A DNA stretch of 64,000 nt, from the NCBI GenBank assembly GCA_021775475.1, contig JAJFHS010000017.1:62001-126000 (forward strand), in the 5' to 3' direction. The notes below the pieces were generated by a model. That model did no database searches. It saw only the letters and a program-made list of their open reading frames with translations, and was not told where the DNA came from. This DNA comes from Hyphomicrobiales bacterium. Lineage in GTDB: Bacteria; Pseudomonadota; Alphaproteobacteria; Rhizobiales; JAJFHR01. Positions 32,939 to 62,472 of the stretch are shown here, piece by piece. Both the position numbers and the translations under genes were made by a program. The stretch's first letter is position 1, and each line of letters starts with the position of its first letter.

Positions 32939-33045
32939 AGCCAGTTGAATGTAAAAGTTTCGTTATGTTGTGGGTTATTTAGAACATAAGTTTTCACCGG
33001 TCGTGATATTATGATCCTGGTTCAGATTACCTGAAATCAACACTC

Positions 33046-33062
33046 AAGGAGTTAAGAGTATC
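33046..33062 (+). promoter_or_regulatory. ribosome binding site fixing a non-canonical ATC start of rsmJ
   Basis: AAGGAG at 33046-33051 is a full Shine-Dalgarno sequence, and the codon at the ideal 8-base distance in the rsmJ frame is ATC (33060-33062). No ATG, GTG or TTG occurs in frame between the upstream stop at 33012 and the SAM-binding motif. Confidence 0.7.
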
Positions 33063-33665
33063 CCGGAAACTTCAAATCCAGCGTTATTTTGCGATTTTAC
33101 CTCAGGTGCCATTGCCCATCGCCTGAAATTTGGCGGCGGCCGCAACCAGGCTCTGCCAAAAGCTGCGGGTTTTTCGCGCGGGCGAACCCCGAAAATTATC
33201 GATGCCACGGCAGGTCTGGGGCGCGATGCTTTTTTACTGGCCTCTTTGGGCGCGCAAGTAACATTGATTGAGCGTTCGCCAGCTGTTCACAAAGCCCTGG
33301 CCACAGCTTTGACAAAGGCTCTGGCAGGACCGGCAGAGATTGCCGCCATCACCGCACGCATGAAACTAATCCATGGTGACGCCAGAGATATTCTTGGTGA
33401 TCTTGAAGCAGAAGTTATTGTTGTCGATCCCATGCACCCGCCACGGCGCAACTCGGCACTGGTTAAACAGGAAATGCGCCTGCTGCGCGATCTGGTGGGG
33501 GCAGACCTTGATAGTCTGGAGCTTATGCAAGCAGCCCTTAAAGTTGCAACCAATCGGGTGGTTCTCAAATGGCCGTCGCGCGCAGCCCCCATGCCGGGGC
33601 TTCAATTGCCCTCACACCAGATAGGCGGCAAGACCACACGCTATGATGTTTTTATGACTTTCTAA
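33060..33665 (+). CDS. rsmJ: 16S rRNA m2G1516 methyltransferase RsmJ, apparent ATC start
   Basis: A 201-residue RsmJ-like SAM methyltransferase that should methylate G1516 of 16S rRNA. The family segments FTSGAIAHRLKFGGGRNQAL (about 14-33), IIDATAGLGRDAFLLASLG (SAM motif), IHGDARDIL and VVDPMHPPRRNSALVKQEMR are all present in one frame. The only NTG codon in frame (TTG at 33246) would delete the SAM site, so initiation at ATC 33060 behind AAGGAG is the best reading. It is shorter than the E. coli protein because the N-terminal extension is missing. It overlaps the convergent dehydrogenase by 14 bases. Confidence 0.8.
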   Translation: MPETSNPALFCDFTSGAIAHRLKFGGGRNQALPKAAGFSRGRTPKIIDATAGLGRDAFLLASLGAQVTLIERSPAVHKALATALTKALAGPAEIAAITARMKLIHGDARDILGDLEAEVIVVDPMHPPRRNSALVKQEMRLLRDLVGADLDSLELMQAALKVATNRVVLKWPSRAAPMPGLQLPSHQIGGKTTRYDVFMTF

Positions 33666-51011: not shown

Positions 51012-51183
51012 AACCAACACATGTTTTGATTTTTTTTGAAACAGCTTCAGTCCTGATCAAAATGCGATTAAGCAAACCATCCCAAAATACGTATTTTCCT
51101 GTTTCTGCTCTTTATAAAAAATTTAAAATAGTGTAAACTTTTCAAAAATTTAGTTCTAGATCAATTCCGATAAGGATTTAGAG

Positions 51184-54100
51184 TTGGCAAAAATAATTGA
51201 TGGGGGCGGAGCGTTTGGTTCGGTCCCGCCTCTAACAATAAATGCAGGCGGCGAGAGGGTTGAGATACCTGATGCCGCGCTGTTGTTTAATGCTGATTTC
51301 TCTCGTTCGGGCAATGATCTTGTGCTTGTCGGTGCGGATGGCAAGACAATCATCATTATCGATTATTTTGCCACAGGTGAAGGGGCCGATCTTGTCTCGC
51401 CGCAAGGGGCTGTTTTGTCTGCCGATGTGGTTGCCGCATTGGCGGGGCCTTTGGCTCCGGGGCAATACGCCCAGGTCGGTGTGCCAGAAGGCGGTGTGCC
51501 CATTGGTCAGGTGGAAAGTCTCTCCGGCACCGCCACGGCTACCCGTGTTGACGGCACGGTAGTAGAGCTAAAAATTGGTTCCAAAGTTTTCAAGGGCGAC
51601 GTTGTTCAGACCGGCGATGACTCATCTCTGGGCGTCACGTTTCTGGATGAATCAGTATTCTCCCTTTCCGACAATGCCCGCATGATTTTGAACGAGTTGG
51701 TCTATGATCCCGGCGGCTCATCCAACTCGATGCTGATAAATCTGGTGCAGGGCGGATTTGTTTTTGTCGCCGGCCAGATTGCGCCAACCGGCGATATGAA
51801 GGTCCAGACACCTGTGGCCACCATGGGTATTCGCGGCACGTCGCCGACGACCTTTATCGCGGCAGATGGCACTGTGTCATTTTCCATTATCCCCGATCCC
51901 GGCCCTGATGGCAAAATCGGTAAATATGTTCTTTTTGACAATACCACCGGCGCGATTATCGGCAACGTCACCGACACCGGAACAAAGCTGGTTCTGACCA
52001 GCGCTGGTGGACAGGTTTTGGAACTCGCCAAAACCACAGCTGATTTTGCCCAGGACCAGCAAAGTCAGGCTGAAGTTTACTCAGCTTTCAACACCCTGCA
52101 ATCGCGTAAGGACAGTGGCCAGCCCGCCGTACAACCAGACAGCTCACAAACCGATGGCGCTGAAGGTGATCCGGCCGAAGGCGACCCGGCAGAGGGTGAT
52201 CCGGCCGAAGGCGATCCAGCAGAGGGTGATCCGGCCGAAGGCGACCCGGCAGAGGGTGATCCGGCCGAAGGCGATCCGGCAGCAGGCGATCCAGCAGCAG
52301 GGGATCCTGCCACAGGAGATTCCGCCGATGGCAATACGGGGACAGAGCCAACTGATGGTGAGGCACCCGCCAGCGATGGCTCTTCAGGCGATACCACCTC
52401 AACAACTTCCACTGATACTGCTGGCAGTCTTGATGGTGATACGTCAAGCTCAGCCGAAGCAGCGCCACCGCCACCGCCACCGCCACCGCCTCCACCACCA
52501 CCGCCGCCACCACCGTCGCCGCCGCCTCCACCTCCACCTCCACCTCCACCTCCACCTCCACCGCCTCCCGTTGTCAATGAGGCCCCTGTTGCCGGTGCGG
52601 TGACGCTTGCCGCTTTTGAAGACGGTGCCGACGTAACGCAAAATTTTTCTGCGACTGATACAGATGGCACAGTGGTGAGTTTTGATATTGTAAACCAGCC
52701 TGTTGGTGGCGGGGTGGAGAACAACAATGATGGTACGTTTACCTACACTCCAAGTGCCGCTTTGCAGCCCCTTGCTGCCGGAGTTGTTCAACAGCTGGTG
52801 TTCACCTTCACCGCAACCGATGATGACGGTGCGGTTTCTGCCGCCGGCAACGCAACAATTACCGTTACCGGCGTCAATGATATCCCGATAGCTAATGATG
52901 ATGACGTTGATGCATTTGAAAATGCTATCCTCAATGGCGATGTGTTTGCCGCCAACGGCAACGGTATTGATCGAGACATCGATATCACCGATACGTTTGA
53001 CGTCACTCTGGTTGAGGGTGGAGCGAATGTTGGTAGCCAGATAGCGCTCGGCTCAGGTGCGCTGCTGACGCTCAATGCCGATGGTACGTTTGCCTATGAT
53101 CCCAACGGCCAGTTTAATTTCCTTGCCCCCAATCAAACTGACACCGACAGCTTCACCTACACCATTGAGGACAGCCAGGGCGCCGCATCTACTGCAACGG
53201 TAACCGTGACAGTTACCGGGGTGAATATCCCGCCGGTGCTTGATCTTGATGGCGATGATTCTGTTACAGCCGGTACGGGCTTTGCTGCAACCTTCACTGA
53301 AGGTGGCGCCTCCGTGGCTATCGCTGATATAGACACAAGTATCACTGATGTTGACAGCGCCAACATCCAGAGCGCGACGGTTGTGGTGACCAATGTTCAG
53401 GATGGTGCAGCTGAAACCCTGACGGTGACCAATGCCTTGGGTCTTTCAATCAACGGCAATGGCACCAGTTCGATAAGCATCGTCGGGGCTGCAACGCTGG
53501 CAACCTATGAAACGGTGATTGAAAGCATCCAGTATAACAACGGCTCGCAAAACCCGACCGTGGGCAATCGCACGATCAATGTTGTGGTTAATGATGGCGG
53601 CTCCAATTCCAATACGGCTGTTAGCACGATCACTGTTGTCGCCACCAATGATGCGCCTGTTGTGGATCTTGATGCTAATGATTCCGCAGCGGTGGGCAGG
53701 GGATTTGCCGCGACTTTCAGCGAAGGCGGCGGTTCGGTTGCCATTTCCGATGTCGATACGCTGATTACCGATGTTGATGATACCAATATCGAGAGCGCGA
53801 CAATCACGCTGACCAATGCCTCTGACGGTATTGCTGAAAGCCTGACGGTGGGCAATGCTTCGGGCCTTACAGTTGTCGGTAATGGCACTGGCACGGTGAC
53901 CCTCACGGGTTCGGCAAGCCTTGCCGTCTATCAATCTGTAATCGAAAGCATCGAATATAACAACACCTCGCTAAACCCGACTGCGGGTAACCGCCTCATC
54001 GATGTGATAGTCAATGACGGCGATGCCAATTCCGACACGGCGACAAGCACAATTAACGTGGTTCCGGTCAATAGTGCTCCCGTACTTGATCTTGATTCCA

Positions 54101-57100
54101 CACTTGGCGGCACCGGATTTGCCAGTACTTTCACCGAAGGCTTCGGTGTCGTTAACATCGCTAACGGTAATGTTTCCATAACCGATGTTGATGACAGCAA
54201 TATCGAAAGTGCAACAATAACCTTGGTAAGCCCGCCTGATGGTGGAGTTGAAACCCTGACGCCACAGCTTACCGGCTTTGGCCTGGTCATAACAGGCGGG
54301 GGCTCCAGTACAATAACCATTACCGGTTCGGCCTCTCTGGCAAACTATCAAACCATCATCCAGGGCATTCAGTACAACAACACATCGCAAGATCCAACTG
54401 CGGGCAATCGCACCATTAATGTGGTGGTCAATGATGGTGATGATAATTCCAATATTGCCGTAAGCACGATCAATGTAATTGCCGTCAATGATGCACCTGC
54501 ACTTGATCTTGATGTAAATGACTCCACTACGTCAGGCACGGACTTTGTCGGTGCGTTTGTCGAAGATGCCGGCGGCGTTGCCATTGCTGATACTGACACA
54601 GCTATCACGGACGTTGACGACACCAATATCGCCAGCGCCACCATAACATTGACCAACCGGCCTGATGGCGACGGGGTGGAGAGCCTTTCGGTTCTTGACA
54701 ACCTGCCCGCGGGCATTAGCACGACCGGGTACAATGCATCGACCGGTGTTTTGGTGTTGACGGGCTCGGCATCAATTGCGGATTATCAAGCCGCCATCGA
54801 ACAGGTCCGTTACAACAACACCAGCGACACTCCCAATGTTGCCAATCGCATCATCAACGTGGTGGTCAGTGATGGTACTGCTGGCTCCAACGTCGCCACA
54901 AGCACAATCTCGATAACCCCGGCCAATGATGCGCCGGTTCTCAGCGGGCTGGACAATGCAACTTTTCCTGAAAATACCGTCAATGCGGCAGCCCAGATCA
55001 TCGACACAGATGTGGTCGTCAGTGATGTTGATACCACCGATTTTGCGGGCGGGACCCTGACTGTCTCCGGCTTCGTCAATGGCGAAGATACCATTGGGGT
55101 TAGTGGTCTGGGCACGATCGGCGTTAGCGGCAGCGACGTATCTTTTGGCGGCACCGTCTTTGCCACGTTTGTCGGCGGCAGCGGCGCCAGCAATCTGGTG
55201 GTCACCTTTAACAACAGTGGTGCAGCTACTCCAGCAGCAATTGAAGCGCTGGTAGAAAATCTCACCTTTGCCAATTCATCAGACACGCCAACCCTCACCC
55301 GCACTTTAAATGTCGCCATCACTGACGGACAGGGCGGCACCACAAATGCTAACAGTATTGTTACCGTAAACGCTCAACCGGAAGCCGTCATAGAACTCTC
55401 CGCCCTTAACGGCACCGATGGTTTTGTCATCAATGGTATTAATGGCTTCGACTATAGCGGTCGCTCGGTTTCCTCGGCTGGTGACATCAATGGTGATGGT
55501 TTTGATGACTTTATCATTGGCGCCTATGGTGCCGATCCAAACAGTAATGCTCAGGCCGGTGCAAGCTACGTGGTGTTCGGACAGGCAGGCAGCTTTGGTC
55601 TCAGCTTCAATCTTTCCACCCTTAACGGCACCAACGGCTTTGTTCTCAATGGTATTGACGCCAATGATTACAGTGGGTTTTCCGTGTCGGGGGCGGGTGA
55701 CATCAATGGCGATGGCTTCAGTGATGTGATCGTTGGAGCCTTTCAGGCCGGCACCTATGGCGTCAATGCTTACGCCGGTGAAAGCTATGTGGTCTTCGGT
55801 CAGGCCAGTGGCTTTGGTGCCAGCATCAATCTGTCCGCCCTCAACGGTACTGACGGCTTTGTTATCAACGGTGTCGATGCCGGTGATCGCAGCGGTTTGT
55901 CAGTATCATCAGCCGGGGACATCAATGGCGATGGCTTTGATGATTTCATCATTGGTGCGTATGCAGCCAACCCCAACAGCATCAACGGTGCCGGTGAAAC
56001 CTATGTGGTCTTCGGCCAGGCGGCGAGCTTTGGTGCCAGCTTTGACCTTTCGACGCTCAACGGTGCCAACGGTTTTATTCTCAATGGTATTGATGGCGAC
56101 GATCAAAGCGGTTTTTCCGTATCCTCAGCTGGTGACATAAACAACGATGGCTTTGATGATTTGATCATCGGGGCAAAATTAGCCGATCCAAATGGCAACC
56201 TTTCCGGTGAAAGCTATGTGGTGTTCGGCAAGGCCAGTGCCTTTAACACCAGCCTTAATCTTTCCACGCTTGCCCTCGGCAGCGGCACCGATGGTTTTGT
56301 TCTCAATGGTGTGGCCATTGGCGATGAAAGCGGCTTTTCGGTTTCTTCCGCAGGCGACGTCAATGGCGATGGTTTTGGTGATTTAATCATTGGTGCAAAC
56401 AGGGCTGATCCAAACTACAGCAATGCCGGAGCAAGCTATGTGGTGTTCGGCCAGGCGGCGGGTTTTGGTGCCAGCTTCAATCTTTCCACGCTTGCCCTCG
56501 GCAACGGGACAACAGGTTTTGTTGTTAATGGTATCAATTTAGAGGACTTTAGCGGTACTTCGGTGTCCTCGGCAGGGGACTTTAACGGTGATGGCTTTGA
56601 CGATTTAATTGTTGGAGCACCCAATGTCGCTCTGGGTGGGTATAACTATGTTGGTCAATCTTATGTCGTGTTCGGCAAGGCCAGTGGTTTTGCCGCCAGC
56701 CTCGAGCTCTCTAACCTTGATAGCACCAACGGCTTTGCTCTTAATGGCGTCGGTTATAACGATTATACCGGGTTTTCGGTGTCCTCGGCAGGGGACGTTA
56801 ACGGTGATGGCTTTGACGATTTAATTGTTGGTGCACGGTATGGTTATGGTGTTGGTGATGGTAAAAGTTACATCATTTTCGGCTCAGCCTTTGGAGCAGG
56901 CAACACACCGGTAAACTTCACCGGTAGTGGAGTAGCTGAAATCATTATCGGCGGGCTGGGCAATGACACGCTTGTTGGCCTTGGCGGGGCTGATGTTATT
57001 CGCGGTGGTGCTGGCGATGATATTATTGCCATCAGTGATGCTACTTTCGTCAGCCTTGATGGCGGCACCGGTATTGATACCTTGCGCATTGATGGCGCGG

Positions 57101-60100
57101 GATTTGTTGGGGCCGCTTTTGACAACGGCACCATCAGCAATTTCGAAGTTCTTGACCTCACCGGGTCAGGCGACAATCTGATTGAGTTAACCCGGCTTGA
57201 TATTTTCAACGAATCGCCTGAACGCAGCGGCGGCATCGCCAGGCTTACGGTTCTCGGCAATGCCGGTGACACAGTGAGCTTTGCCGAACTGGGCTGGTCT
57301 CTCAGCGGCCAGGTCACCGTCGGTACCGATACTTTCAACCGCATTGTCAACGGCAATGCCGAAGTGCTGGTGCAGGATACTGTCGCCACCCTCATCCCCG
57401 GTGCGCAAACCGCCATCATAGAACTTTCCTCCCTCAATGGCGGCAATGGATTTGTGCTTAATGGGATTACTGCCGGTGATGAAAGCGGTGATTTTGTATC
57501 ATCGGCAGGCGACATCAACGGCGATGGATTTGATGATTTTATTATTGGCGCACCTTTAGGTGATCCAAATGCCAATGATGCTTCCGGTGAAACCTATGTT
57601 GTCTTCGGTCAGGCGGGCGGGTTTGGCGCCAGCTTTGATCTCTCCACGCTTAATGGCGCCAACGGTTTTGTTATCAATGGTATCAGTGCCACCGATGAAA
57701 GCGGCACTTCTGTATCTTCAGCCGGTGATATTAATGGTGATGGCATTGATGATTTGATCATTGGTGCACCGTTTGGCGATCCAAATGCCAATGGTGATGC
57801 CGGTGAAACCTATGTGGTGTTCGGTCAGACGACAGGTTTTGGTGCCAGCCTCAACCTTTCGACACTGAATGGCACCAACGGGTTTGTCATCAATGGTGTT
57901 GATGCAAACGATTTCAGCGGCACATCCGCATCTTCAGCCGGTGATGTCAATGGCGATGGTTTTGATGACATAATCATCGGTGCCTATGGTGCCGCCCAGG
58001 GTGCCAACGCAACTGCCGGTGAAAGCTATGTGGTATTTGGTCAGGCAAGCAGCTTTGGCGCCAGCTTCAATCTCTCAAGTCTTACCGGCGCAAACGGCTT
58101 TATAATCACCGGTATTGCAACCGGTGACTCAAGTGGTTATTCGGTATCATCAGCAGGCGACATCAATGGCGATGGTTTTGCCGATGTGATCATTGGCGCC
58201 AACCGTGCAGATTCTGCTAATGCTGACGCCGGTGACAGCTATGTGATTTTTGGTCAGGAGACAGGATTTACCGTCACCCTGGATCTCAGCACCCTTAACG
58301 GCACCAATGGTTTCGTTCTCAATGGTATTGATGCCGGTGACCGCAGTGGTGTTTCGGTATCCTCGGCGGGCGATTTCAATGGCGATGGCTTTGATGATCT
58401 GATCATTGGTGCATCTGATGCCGATCCAGGCGCTAACAGCAACGCCGGGGAAAGCTATATCGTGTTCGGCAAGGCAACAGCCTTTAGCGCCAGCTTCGAT
58501 CTCTCTACTCTTAGCGGCACCGACGGTTTTGTCATAAATGGCATTGATACGGGAGACCGCAGCGGCTATTCGGTGTCCTCAGCCGGTGACGTCAATGGTG
58601 ATGGTTTTGACGATCTGCTTATCGACGCATATGCAGCCGATACAAATGGCTTCACTTCGGGTGAAACCTATGTGGTGTTTGGCCAGGCGGCGAGTTTTGG
58701 CGCCAGCTTTAATCTTACCTCCCTTAACGGCACCAACGGCTTTGTCATCAATGGTATTGACGGCAACGACCAGAGCGCTACTTCGGTGTCCTCAGCTGGC
58801 GACATCAATGGTGATGGCTTTGACGATCTGATTGTTGGAGCACCTTATGGAGATCCCAACAGTATTGCTGATGCCGGCGAAAGCTACATCATCTTCGGTG
58901 CAGCCTTTGGCTCAAGCTCAACCCCGGTTAACACCACCGGCACCGCCGGGGCGGATGTCATAATCGGCGGGCTGGGTGATGATACGCTTGTGGGCGCTGG
59001 CGGGGCTGATGTTATTCGTGGTGGTGCCGGCGATGATGTTATTGCCATTAGTGATGATTTCTTTGCTCGCATTGATGGCGGCACCGGCATTGATACCTTG
59101 CGCCTTGATGGTGCAGGTTTCAGCCCGACCTCGGCTGGCGGCGATGGTGTCATTACCGGAATTGAACGCATTGATATAACCGGCTCTGGCGATAATACCA
59201 TTGCCCTGACCAAACTCGATGTCTTCAGCGCAACATCTGAACGCAGTGGCGGCATTGCCAGCATCACCGTTGTTGGTAACGCCGGTGACGCCGTCAGTTT
59301 CGAAGATCTGGGCTGGTCGATTGCCGGTCAGGTGACCATCGGTGCCAATACCTTCAACCGCCTTGTCAACGGCAATGCCCAGGTTCTGGTGCAGGATACG
59401 GTAGGAACCATCATTCCCGGCGCTCTGTCTGCCACAATCGAACTTGGCACTTTAAATGGTGGTAATGGCTTTGTCATAAATGGCGTGGCGGCAAATGATC
59501 AGGCCGGGGTTTCGGTATCATCAGCGGGCGACATCAATAATGATGGTATTGACGATTTAATTATTGGTGCGCGCTTTGCCGATCCCGGTGGCAGGGCCTC
59601 TGCCGGGGAAACCTATGTGGTATTCGGCCAGGCCAATGCCGGTGATCTTAGCTTTAATCTTTCCACCCTTAACGGTACCAACGGCTTTGTCCTCAATGGT
59701 ATTGACGCGGGCGATCGCAGCGGTCGCTCTGTATCTTCTGCCGGTGACATTAATGATGACGGTATTGACGATTTGATTATCGGTGCGTTTTTAGGCGATG
59801 GCGGTGGCGGTTCATCGGGCGAAAGCTATGTGGTATTTGGTAAAAACGGCGGATTTAGCGCCAGCCTCGATCTCTCCACCCTGACCGGCACCAATGGCTT
59901 TGTTATCAATGGTGTAGCTGCGGGTGACAACAGCGGTATTTCAGTTTCGAATGCCGGTGATATCAATGGCGATAACATTGATGATTTGATCATTGGCGCT
60001 AATAGCGCCGGAAGTGGTGCCGGTGCAAGTTACGTGGTGTTTGGCACGGGCGCTGGTTTTGCTGCCAGTATAAATCTTTCCGGGCTTACCGGTGCCAACG

Positions 60101-62472
60101 GTTTTGTTCTTAATGGTATCAATGGCGCTGATAACAGCGGAGTTTCGGTGGCAGCTGCCGGTGATGTCAATGGCGATGGCATAGGTGATTTGATCATTGG
60201 TGCAGATAAAGCTGATCCCAATAGCTCAACATCGGGCGAAAGCTACGTGGTGTTTGGCAAGAACACGAGCTTCACCGCCTCTCTCAACCTCTCCACGCTT
60301 AATGGCACCAACGGCTTTACCATCAATGGCATCGATATCGGTGATGAAAGCGGTGGCTCGGTAGCCTCAGCCGGTGACTTCAATGGCGACGGTTTTGCTG
60401 ATATAATCATCGGCGCTGAATATGGTGAATCTACTCTCTTCGACCAGGGCGAATCTTATATTATTTTTGGTCAGGCAGGCGGTTTTAGCGCTACCCTTGA
60501 ACTCTCCACTCTCAACGGTACCAACGGTTTTCGTATCGATGGGGTTGCCGTGAGTGATCGAAGCGGTATTTCAGTGTCGTCGGCTGGAGATGTGAATGGT
60601 GATGGCTTTGATGATGTCATCATTGGCGCAATTTCCGCCGACCCCAATGGTGTTACCAGTGCCGGTGCAAGCTATGTGGTGTTTGGTGCAGCCACCGGGT
60701 TTGGAGCAAGTTTCGATCTTGCCAATCTCAATGGCACCAACGGCTTTGTTATCAATGGTATCGATACAAGCGATCAAAGCGGTATTTCGGTGTCGTCGGC
60801 AGGCGATGTCAATGGCGATGGCTTTGCCGACATACTTGTTGGTGCAGAACTGGGTGATCCAAATGCCCTCACCAATTCCGGCGAAACCTATGTGATATTT
60901 GGTGCAGCTTTCGGCAATGGCGTAATTCTCGGCACGGCGGCGGCTGAGACCCTCACCGGCACGGCCGGGGCTGACAATATTCGCGGGCTTGGTGGTATCG
61001 ATACGCTCACCGGGCTTGGCGGTAATGACCGGCTCGAAGGCGGTGCCGATAATGATACACTCACCGGTGGTGCTGGCCTTGATACCTTTGTGTTCGGTAA
61101 TGACGGCAGCTTTGATACGGTGACGGATTTCTCTCTCACAGATGATACAGTTGATGTTGCCGGATTTTTTGCCCCCGGTGTTACAAATTCAAACGCATTT
61201 GAATTTGTTCAGATTGTCAATACCGGCGTGGTGCTGGTAGATAGCGATGGCGCTGCCAACGGTATTGATTTTACCAACCCCGGTGTCGCAAGTCTCACCG
61301 GATTGGCAGTCGGAAACGTCGTCAACGTAATCGTAGACGAAATTGGCACCGTTGCAACCGTCCCGGTCAGATCCAACTTCACCGGCAGCGCTGGAGGCGA
61401 GACCATCAGCGGCTCGGCCGCAACCGATCTGATCCAGGGTCTGGCTGGTAACGATACCTTAAACGGTCTCGCTGGTGGTGATGTGTTGCTGGGCGGTGCC
61501 GGGATTGATACCCTCAATGGTGGTGACAATGATGATATCCTCGTTGGCGGTGCTGATGGTGATACTCTTGATGGCGGCAATGGAGGTGACCTCTTGCGTG
61601 GCAGCAGTGGCACCAACAGCTTAACCGGCGGTATTGGTAACGATAGTTTCTTCTTCGAAGATACCAACGGCGTATCGCGATTTGACACTGTCACTGATTT
61701 TAGCCTGACAGACGATGTGATCAATCTGTCTGATATTCTCGACGCCAGTTTCACTCTTGGCACTCAGGCTGAATTTATTGAGTTACGGGAACTCGGCGCC
61801 AGTGGCGTGGCATTGGTTCGCATCGATAGTGATGGCTCTGCCAATGGCGTGAATTTTGTCGACATTGCAGACCTGAATGGCATCGCTCAAGGTAACAGTG
61901 TTAATTTCCTGTTTAATAACAGCACCAGCGCAGGCTCTGTAACGGTCACAGCCTTTAATGAAATTACCGGAACAGCAGGTAACGATACTCTGCCGGGAAC
62001 AGCCGGGGATGATTTGATCACCGGACTGGCGGGTATTGATACTCTGACAGGGTTGGGCGGTAACGATATTTTGGACGGTGGTGATGGCAACGACACTCTG
62101 GACGGCGGCATTGGCAATGATACGCTGGAAGGCGGGCTTGGCACCAACACATTAACCGGCGGCACCGGCAGCGATAAATTTGTGCTCACTGATACTTTGG
62201 CTTTCGATACCATCACCGATTTTGCCCTTGCTGATGACCTGCTCGATGTGTCTGCTCTGCTCGACGCCAACTTTACTGTTGCCAATCAGGCAACCTACAT
62301 CCAGGCGGTTGATGATGCCTCCGGCAACACGGATATCAACATTGATCCTGATGGTGTCGCTGGTGGCGTCAATTTCGTAAATGTTGCGTCTTTAACAGGC
62401 ATAACTGCCAGTGATACGATTAATTTCATCTTTGATGATGTCGGCAGTCAAAGCAGCGTTGTCTCGGTCTAG
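51184..62472 (+). CDS. giant type I secreted adhesin-like protein: FecR-like, cadherin-like, FG-GAP propellers, RTX
   Basis: A 3,762-residue, acidic, Gly/Asp/Asn-rich protein without a Sec signal. In order: an N-terminal region with a FecR-like domain (about 110-260, VESLSGTATATRVDGTVVEL, FSLSDNARMILNELVYD, TPVATMGIRGT); AEGDP tandem repeats (about 326-380); a proline tract (428-462); cadherin/VCBS-like modules (about 463-1400); three FG-GAP arrays (1402-3242) with DxNxDGxxD calcium motifs; and a C-terminus with RTX nonapeptides (GGNDTL type) and DTVTDFSL target domains (about 3245-3762). The start is TTG behind AAGGAT. It is the likely cargo of the exporter upstream. Surface adhesion or biofilm matrix is the likely role; LapG/LapD-type retention genes are not in the window. 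Confidence 0.9.
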   Translation: MAKIIDGGGAFGSVPPLTINAGGERVEIPDAALLFNADFSRSGNDLVLVGADGKTIIIIDYFATGEGADLVSPQGAVLSADVVAALAGPLAPGQYAQVGVPEGGVPIGQVESLSGTATATRVDGTVVELKIGSKVFKGDVVQTGDDSSLGVTFLDESVFSLSDNARMILNELVYDPGGSSNSMLINLVQGGFVFVAGQIAPTGDMKVQTPVATMGIRGTSPTTFIAADGTVSFSIIPDPGPDGKIGKYVLFDNTTGAIIGNVTDTGTKLVLTSAGGQVLELAKTTADFAQDQQSQAEVYSAFNTLQSRKDSGQPAVQPDSSQTDGAEGDPAEGDPAEGDPAEGDPAEGDPAEGDPAEGDPAEGDPAAGDPAAGDPATGDSADGNTGTEPTDGEAPASDGSSGDTTSTTSTDTAGSLDGDTSSSAEAAPPPPPPPPPPPPPPPPPSPPPPPPPPPPPPPPPPPVVNEAPVAGAVTLAAFEDGADVTQNFSATDTDGTVVSFDIVNQPVGGGVENNNDGTFTYTPSAALQPLAAGVVQQLVFTFTATDDDGAVSAAGNATITVTGVNDIPIANDDDVDAFENAILNGDVFAANGNGIDRDIDITDTFDVTLVEGGANVGSQIALGSGALLTLNADGTFAYDPNGQFNFLAPNQTDTDSFTYTIEDSQGAASTATVTVTVTGVNIPPVLDLDGDDSVTAGTGFAATFTEGGASVAIADIDTSITDVDSANIQSATVVVTNVQDGAAETLTVTNALGLSINGNGTSSISIVGAATLATYETVIESIQYNNGSQNPTVGNRTINVVVNDGGSNSNTAVSTITVVATNDAPVVDLDANDSAAVGRGFAATFSEGGGSVAISDVDTLITDVDDTNIESATITLTNASDGIAESLTVGNASGLTVVGNGTGTVTLTGSASLAVYQSVIESIEYNNTSLNPTAGNRLIDVIVNDGDANSDTATSTINVVPVNSAPVLDLDSTLGGTGFASTFTEGFGVVNIANGNVSITDVDDSNIESATITLVSPPDGGVETLTPQLTGFGLVITGGGSSTITITGSASLANYQTIIQGIQYNNTSQDPTAGNRTINVVVNDGDDNSNIAVSTINVIAVNDAPALDLDVNDSTTSGTDFVGAFVEDAGGVAIADTDTAITDVDDTNIASATITLTNRPDGDGVESLSVLDNLPAGISTTGYNASTGVLVLTGSASIADYQAAIEQVRYNNTSDTPNVANRIINVVVSDGTAGSNVATSTISITPANDAPVLSGLDNATFPENTVNAAAQIIDTDVVVSDVDTTDFAGGTLTVSGFVNGEDTIGVSGLGTIGVSGSDVSFGGTVFATFVGGSGASNLVVTFNNSGAATPAAIEALVENLTFANSSDTPTLTRTLNVAITDGQGGTTNANSIVTVNAQPEAVIELSALNGTDGFVINGINGFDYSGRSVSSAGDINGDGFDDFIIGAYGADPNSNAQAGASYVVFGQAGSFGLSFNLSTLNGTNGFVLNGIDANDYSGFSVSGAGDINGDGFSDVIVGAFQAGTYGVNAYAGESYVVFGQASGFGASINLSALNGTDGFVINGVDAGDRSGLSVSSAGDINGDGFDDFIIGAYAANPNSINGAGETYVVFGQAASFGASFDLSTLNGANGFILNGIDGDDQSGFSVSSAGDINNDGFDDLIIGAKLADPNGNLSGESYVVFGKASAFNTSLNLSTLALGSGTDGFVLNGVAIGDESGFSVSSAGDVNGDGFGDLIIGANRADPNYSNAGASYVVFGQAAGFGASFNLSTLALGNGTTGFVVNGINLEDFSGTSVSSAGDFNGDGFDDLIVGAPNVALGGYNYVGQSYVVFGKASGFAASLELSNLDSTNGFALNGVGYNDYTGFSVSSAGDVNGDGFDDLIVGARYGYGVGDGKSYIIFGSAFGAGNTPVNFTGSGVAEIIIGGLGNDTLVGLGGADVIRGGAGDDIIAISDATFVSLDGGTGIDTLRIDGAGFVGAAFDNGTISNFEVLDLTGSGDNLIELTRLDIFNESPERSGGIARLTVLGNAGDTVSFAELGWSLSGQVTVGTDTFNRIVNGNAEVLVQDTVATLIPGAQTAIIELSSLNGGNGFVLNGITAGDESGDFVSSAGDINGDGFDDFIIGAPLGDPNANDASGETYVVFGQAGGFGASFDLSTLNGANGFVINGISATDESGTSVSSAGDINGDGIDDLIIGAPFGDPNANGDAGETYVVFGQTTGFGASLNLSTLNGTNGFVINGVDANDFSGTSASSAGDVNGDGFDDIIIGAYGAAQGANATAGESYVVFGQASSFGASFNLSSLTGANGFIITGIATGDSSGYSVSSAGDINGDGFADVIIGANRADSANADAGDSYVIFGQETGFTVTLDLSTLNGTNGFVLNGIDAGDRSGVSVSSAGDFNGDGFDDLIIGASDADPGANSNAGESYIVFGKATAFSASFDLSTLSGTDGFVINGIDTGDRSGYSVSSAGDVNGDGFDDLLIDAYAADTNGFTSGETYVVFGQAASFGASFNLTSLNGTNGFVINGIDGNDQSATSVSSAGDINGDGFDDLIVGAPYGDPNSIADAGESYIIFGAAFGSSSTPVNTTGTAGADVIIGGLGDDTLVGAGGADVIRGGAGDDVIAISDDFFARIDGGTGIDTLRLDGAGFSPTSAGGDGVITGIERIDITGSGDNTIALTKLDVFSATSERSGGIASITVVGNAGDAVSFEDLGWSIAGQVTIGANTFNRLVNGNAQVLVQDTVGTIIPGALSATIELGTLNGGNGFVINGVAANDQAGVSVSSAGDINNDGIDDLIIGARFADPGGRASAGETYVVFGQANAGDLSFNLSTLNGTNGFVLNGIDAGDRSGRSVSSAGDINDDGIDDLIIGAFLGDGGGGSSGESYVVFGKNGGFSASLDLSTLTGTNGFVINGVAAGDNSGISVSNAGDINGDNIDDLIIGANSAGSGAGASYVVFGTGAGFAASINLSGLTGANGFVLNGINGADNSGVSVAAAGDVNGDGIGDLIIGADKADPNSSTSGESYVVFGKNTSFTASLNLSTLNGTNGFTINGIDIGDESGGSVASAGDFNGDGFADIIIGAEYGESTLFDQGESYIIFGQAGGFSATLELSTLNGTNGFRIDGVAVSDRSGISVSSAGDVNGDGFDDVIIGAISADPNGVTSAGASYVVFGAATGFGASFDLANLNGTNGFVINGIDTSDQSGISVSSAGDVNGDGFADILVGAELGDPNALTNSGETYVIFGAAFGNGVILGTAAAETLTGTAGADNIRGLGGIDTLTGLGGNDRLEGGADNDTLTGGAGLDTFVFGNDGSFDTVTDFSLTDDTVDVAGFFAPGVTNSNAFEFVQIVNTGVVLVDSDGAANGIDFTNPGVASLTGLAVGNVVNVIVDEIGTVATVPVRSNFTGSAGGETISGSAATDLIQGLAGNDTLNGLAGGDVLLGGAGIDTLNGGDNDDILVGGADGDTLDGGNGGDLLRGSSGTNSLTGGIGNDSFFFEDTNGVSRFDTVTDFSLTDDVINLSDILDASFTLGTQAEFIELRELGASGVALVRIDSDGSANGVNFVDIADLNGIAQGNSVNFLFNNSTSAGSVTVTAFNEITGTAGNDTLPGTAGDDLITGLAGIDTLTGLGGNDILDGGDGNDTLDGGIGNDTLEGGLGTNTLTGGTGSDKFVLTDTLAFDTITDFALADDLLDVSALLDANFTVANQATYIQAVDDASGNTDINIDPDGVAGGVNFVNVASLTGITASDTINFIFDDVGSQSSVVSV
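52159..52323 (+). repeat. 15-bp tandem repeat encoding AEGDP/AAGDP units
   Basis: Eleven 15-base units encode AEGDP eight times, AAGDP twice and ATGDS once. The synonymous third bases alternate (GATCCG/GACCCG, GAA/GAG), suggesting expansion of a two-unit block. It makes a flexible acidic linker between the FecR-like region and the proline tract, and it is prone to length change. Confidence 0.92.
52465..52569 (+). repeat. 35-codon proline tract interrupted by one serine
   Basis: Two runs of 17 Pro codons (CCA/CCG/CCT/CCC mixed) flank a single Ser. It is a stiff polyproline spacer between the N-terminal region and the first repeat module. The codon mixture argues against a simple one-codon slippage run. 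Confidence 0.92.
53230..55386 (+). repeat. five tandem cadherin-like modules of about 140 residues
   Basis: Module starts at about 53230, 53656, 54079, 54496 and 54934 give spacings of 142, 141, 139 and 146 codons. The first four share PVLDLD at the start, SITDVDD-like and IESATITLT cores, GSASLANYQTIIQ-like segments, then NPTAGNRTINVVVND. The fifth is divergent (LDNATFPENTVNAAAQIIDTD). Modules before 53230 are VCBS/cadherin-like but differ. Confidence 0.85.
55387..60912 (+). repeat. 674-aa super-repeat with three arrays of seven FG-GAP units
   Basis: Arrays begin at 55387, 57412 and 59431 (spacing 675 and 673 codons). Each array has exactly seven FG-GAP units of about 70 residues, each with SSAGDINGDGFDDLIIGA-like cores, and ends with a variant unit (IIFGSAFG/IIFGAAFG/VIFGAAFG). 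Arrays 1 and 2 are followed by a 170-aa RTX-plus-linker module (VIRGGAGDD..., SERSGGIA, FNR(I/L)VNGNA). Seven units fit a closed integrin-like beta-propeller. Confidence 0.88.
60913..62469 (+). repeat. triplicated RTX repeats and secretion-target domains
   Basis: Three consecutive blocks each carry RTX nonapeptides (TLTGLGGNDRLEGGADNDTL style) followed by a DTVTDFSLTDD-type target domain (near 61117, 61687 and 62209) and a beta-rich tail. Normally one such domain ends an RTX cargo; here three occur in series, the last ending the protein. Confidence 0.85.

Follow-up and report, generated by a model that had tools for sequence, protein, structure and literature searches.

The window analyzed here is a 64,000-nucleotide stretch of a contig from an uncultured Hyphomicrobiales bacterium. 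On its plus strand it carries an rsmJ-like methyltransferase gene at 33060..33665, encoding 201 amino acids and ending in TAA (33663-33665). The open frame is bounded upstream by an in-frame TGA (33012..33014). The region ahead of the gene reads TCAACACTC, followed by a Shine-Dalgarno (SD) sequence, AAGGAG (33046..33051), an 8-nt spacer, TTAAGAGT, and ATC (33060..33062), after which the codons CCG and GAA follow. A first-pass annotation proposed this ATC as the start codon of rsmJ and described a perfect AAGGAG 8 bases before it, a description that the sequence bears out in full.

A tentative extended −10 promoter element (TG-A-TATTAT; plus strand, 33007..33012) was recognized by eye, and TTATGATCC is conserved in the congener described below. 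A consensus scan for a sigma-70 type promoter returned no match, and mRNA folding around the start shows nothing unusual (z 0.15 and 1.58). Elsewhere in the window, at 51160-62469, an exceptionally long frame stays open for 3770 codons.

Identity of the encoded protein

The protein scores 218 bits against the Pfam family PF04445 (SAM_MT), for which the gathering cut-off is 26 (E = 1.3e-64), and its closest match in the PDB is E. coli YhiQ/RsmJ (8e-45). RsmJ (YhiQ) of E. coli is the methyltransferase that forms m2G1516 in 16S rRNA. The two proteins belong to the same Pfam family and share the conserved DATAGLGRDAF and DPM.P motifs; however, the ~46 residues at the N terminus of the E. coli enzyme have no counterpart in the window protein, which also has a probable ATC start. 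With the NCBIfam RsmJ equivalog model NF008012, the score is 174 bits against a cut-off of 422, and the first 53 positions of the model are uncovered. This shortfall is consistent with the missing N-terminal residues. The name rsmJ, assigned in the first pass, is thus well founded at the level of the PF04445 family but falls short at that of the equivalog, and by sequence similarity the gene encodes a short relative of PF04445/RsmJ proteins and a putative m2G1516 methyltransferase.

Matches to the RsmJ family were found in 26 of 397 genomes of the order and 22 of 385 of the class, although a number of these matches are weak and probably reflect unrelated proteins. Strong matches are patchy across Alphaproteobacteria, in contrast to the account in PMC7056703, where RsmJ orthologues are said to be specific to Enterobacteria.

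Evidence for initiation at ATC

Reading on from the TGA, the frame reaches its first ATG, GTG, or TTG at TTG 33246, which is codon 77 of the open frame, 62 codons past ATC, and lies beyond the SAM-binding motif IDATAGLGRDAF. The claim that no NTG precedes this motif therefore holds for these three codons but not for CTG, which the frame contains twice, at 33123 and 33153. Neither CTG can start an intact protein, because both are inside the conserved HRLKFGGGRNQAL core. An ATG, GTG, or TTG able to produce the protein is absent upstream of the conserved core, which places the gene among candidates for natural ATN starts. No other open frame surveyed in the window has its first NTG so late; the runner-up has it at codon 39. 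Because a run of 61 codons without NTG is expected by chance at ~0.9%, given local codon usage, its absence is by itself weak evidence and not decisive.

More informative is comparison with relatives. A congener search among 61 relatives matched locus L003 of genome G002, a sequence found unchanged within record JAJRTY010000042.1 (L006), a separately assembled metagenome-assembled genome (MAG). The L006 protein is 78% identical to the window protein, and the genes flanking it on either side match at 71-96% identity. At the corresponding place, L006 carries TCAACACTCAAGGAGTTAAGA..ATCCCG, with the same SD, the same spacing, and the same ATC CCG; the start region reads TCAACACTCAAGGAGTTAAGAcgATCCCG in L006 versus TCAACACTCAAGGAGTTAAGAgtATCCCG in the window. 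The SD lies within a 21-nt block identical in both, and the L006 frame is likewise free of NTG before codon 62. At the ~75% local identity of the two sequences, three conserved bases by themselves are not significant. ATC is, in addition, the sole ATN or NTG codon at SD distance in both sequences, and no ATG, GTG, or TTG occurs in any frame within 28 nt downstream of it in either. AAGGAG occurs 10 times in the window over both strands (7.8e-5 per base); from this rate, and allowing about six spacings, the chance that any particular codon has one suitably spaced from it is ~5e-4.

The start codon is not uniform within the genus. ATC recurs in L006, whereas the third congener (G001, 73%) uses an ATG located five codons further upstream, and the gene context upstream of it is different. 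Among 79 homologues gathered from searches, 76 have an in-frame ATG, GTG, or TTG before the conserved Asp-Phe (DF), the exceptions being the window gene, L006, and L014. At the aligned position, several homologues carry ATG or GTG, in some cases with a Pro codon next, as in ATG CCC (L038), GTG CCC (L025), and GTG GCC (L008). L014 (2955-3050), a PF04445 homologue from an unrelated, Caulobacter-type MAG, has only a CTG at −3 before the conserved core, possibly a CTG start or an assembly error.

Codon-position analysis locates where protein constraint begins. Between the window and L006, changes at the first, second, and third codon positions after ATC number 27, 24, and 77, and the Nei-Gojobori dN/dS of 0.17 indicates purifying selection. 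In the 15 codons upstream of ATC, the corresponding numbers are 4, 4, and 3, and 10 of 11 changes would be non-synonymous, revealing no amino-acid constraint. On this pattern of substitution, the stretch after ATC is coding and the upstream extension is not, and the start is therefore placed near ATC. The congener comparison, the homologue survey, and the codon-change analysis uphold the first-pass proposal: translation of the rsmJ-like gene most likely starts at ATC 33060.

This placement leaves little room for initiation at another nearby in-frame codon, such as an upstream AAG or GTT, or the ACG found at −1 in L006. Weak initiation is possible at many codons in E. coli, according to PMC12350097. 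However, AAG is just 2 nt from the SD, the ACG is replaced by AGT in the window, and the upstream extension shows no protein constraint, whereas ATC is conserved and well spaced from the SD. We regard a neighboring start codon as unlikely. Gene decay, in which a poorly translated gene would have lost its start codon as an early step, is in keeping with the patchy occurrence of RsmJ-family genes in the class. It is nevertheless very unlikely, given a dN/dS of 0.17 between two species that both have ATC, intact motifs, and a perfect, conserved SD.

Still less probable is a short upstream open reading frame, from ATG 33011 to TGA 33034, whose ribosomes would pass on to rsmJ through re-initiation or by shifting +1. 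Its seven codons have the ATG and TGA at like positions in the window and L006, but three-base matches are expected at such identity, and the peptide is unconserved (MILVQIT versus MIRDQIL). Moreover, ATG 33011 lacks an SD, overlaps the possible −10 element, and may not be transcribed, and no slippery sequence is common to the two species. An assembly or sequencing error, with ATG as the real codon or an indel concealing an upstream start, is scarcely credible: the only two genomes carrying ATC are both fragmented assemblies, the second a MAG, but the frame is open with no sign of an indel, and two species at 78% protein identity, assembled separately, share ATC, frame, and spacing, so the identical odd codon would need independent errors in both. 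The refutation by sequencing error that the first pass had named is, in effect, closed.

Probable non-canonical initiation and its possible consequences

Initiation at ATC 33060 is very probable and would belong to a class of non-canonical starts that is infrequent but already recognized. Natural ATC starts are seldom documented; one in bacteria is that of Myxococcus xanthus dsg, which encodes IF3 and uses AUC. It has the start codon in common with the rsmJ-like gene but differs in gene and phylum. A literature search for RsmJ start codons found no paper. In E. coli, AUC ranks within the top seven codons by measured initiation strength, as stated in PMC12350097, which cites Hecht 2017.

The same organisms provide a positive control. 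In 3/3 members of the genus, infC begins ATA GCA CGT AGA behind a conserved AAGGAG (L078 in G000, L076 in G001, and L079 in G002), and recovery of this ATA indicates that the approach picks up a known type of non-canonical start. A similarly placed ATA is present in infC of G052 (L077), which reads AAGGAG..ATA GCC CGC AGA. The infC and rsmJ-like genes both pair a strong SD with an ATN start other than ATG, and both products act, putatively in the rsmJ-like case, on the 30S subunit near the 3′ end of 16S rRNA. They differ in that the infC ATA is found in all three species and in G052, whereas the rsmJ-like ATC is found in two species. Autoregulation is established for infC, whereas for the rsmJ-like gene it is an analogy. 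The infC of this genus does have a non-canonical start, but the throttling proposed in the first pass, like its parallel to infC, is still an argument by analogy. The 16S 3′ end was looked for in G000 and G002 and was not recovered, and a pattern match for the initiator tRNA was rejected because it turned out to be no tRNA.

These observations suggest how the start might work. We infer the use of ATC itself, a low output, and any regulatory role. Initiator fMet-tRNA would decode ATC 33060 despite the third-position mismatch, aided by the perfect AAGGAG 8 nt upstream. The simplest origin for the codon would be an ATG whose G changed to C in an ancestor shared by the two species, with the ATC kept since then. 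Reduced output is expected because IF3 discriminates against such codons, and the ATC start probably limits the amount of enzyme. PMC10158994 reports that IF3 in vitro disfavors weak pairing at the third position, AUU/CAU being one example, and that AUC mismatches behaved likewise when tested with anticodons other than CAU. A reduced output could reflect either regulation or drift compensated by the strong SD. By analogy with infC, throttled or feedback-controlled expression of the rsmJ-like gene is plausible.

A specific form of feedback, in which the gene senses its own product, can also be envisaged. The m2G1516 site adjoins both the region where IF3 binds and the sites modified by KsgA. 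PMC7949028 states that losing methylations at 1518/1519 (RsmA/KsgA) and 966/967 (RsmB/D) relaxes initiation fidelity. Because the RsmJ target adjoins 1518/1519, 30S subunits without m2G1516 could conceivably be more permissive for ATC and yield more methyltransferase in an infC-like loop, a proposal that we consider unlikely.

For annotation, gene callers restricted to ATG, GTG, and TTG would cut this protein after the SAM-binding motif or miss the gene. For the biology of the family, an ATC start in an rRNA methyltransferase that would target a site near that of IF3 offers a test case for infC-style control of ribosome-modification genes.
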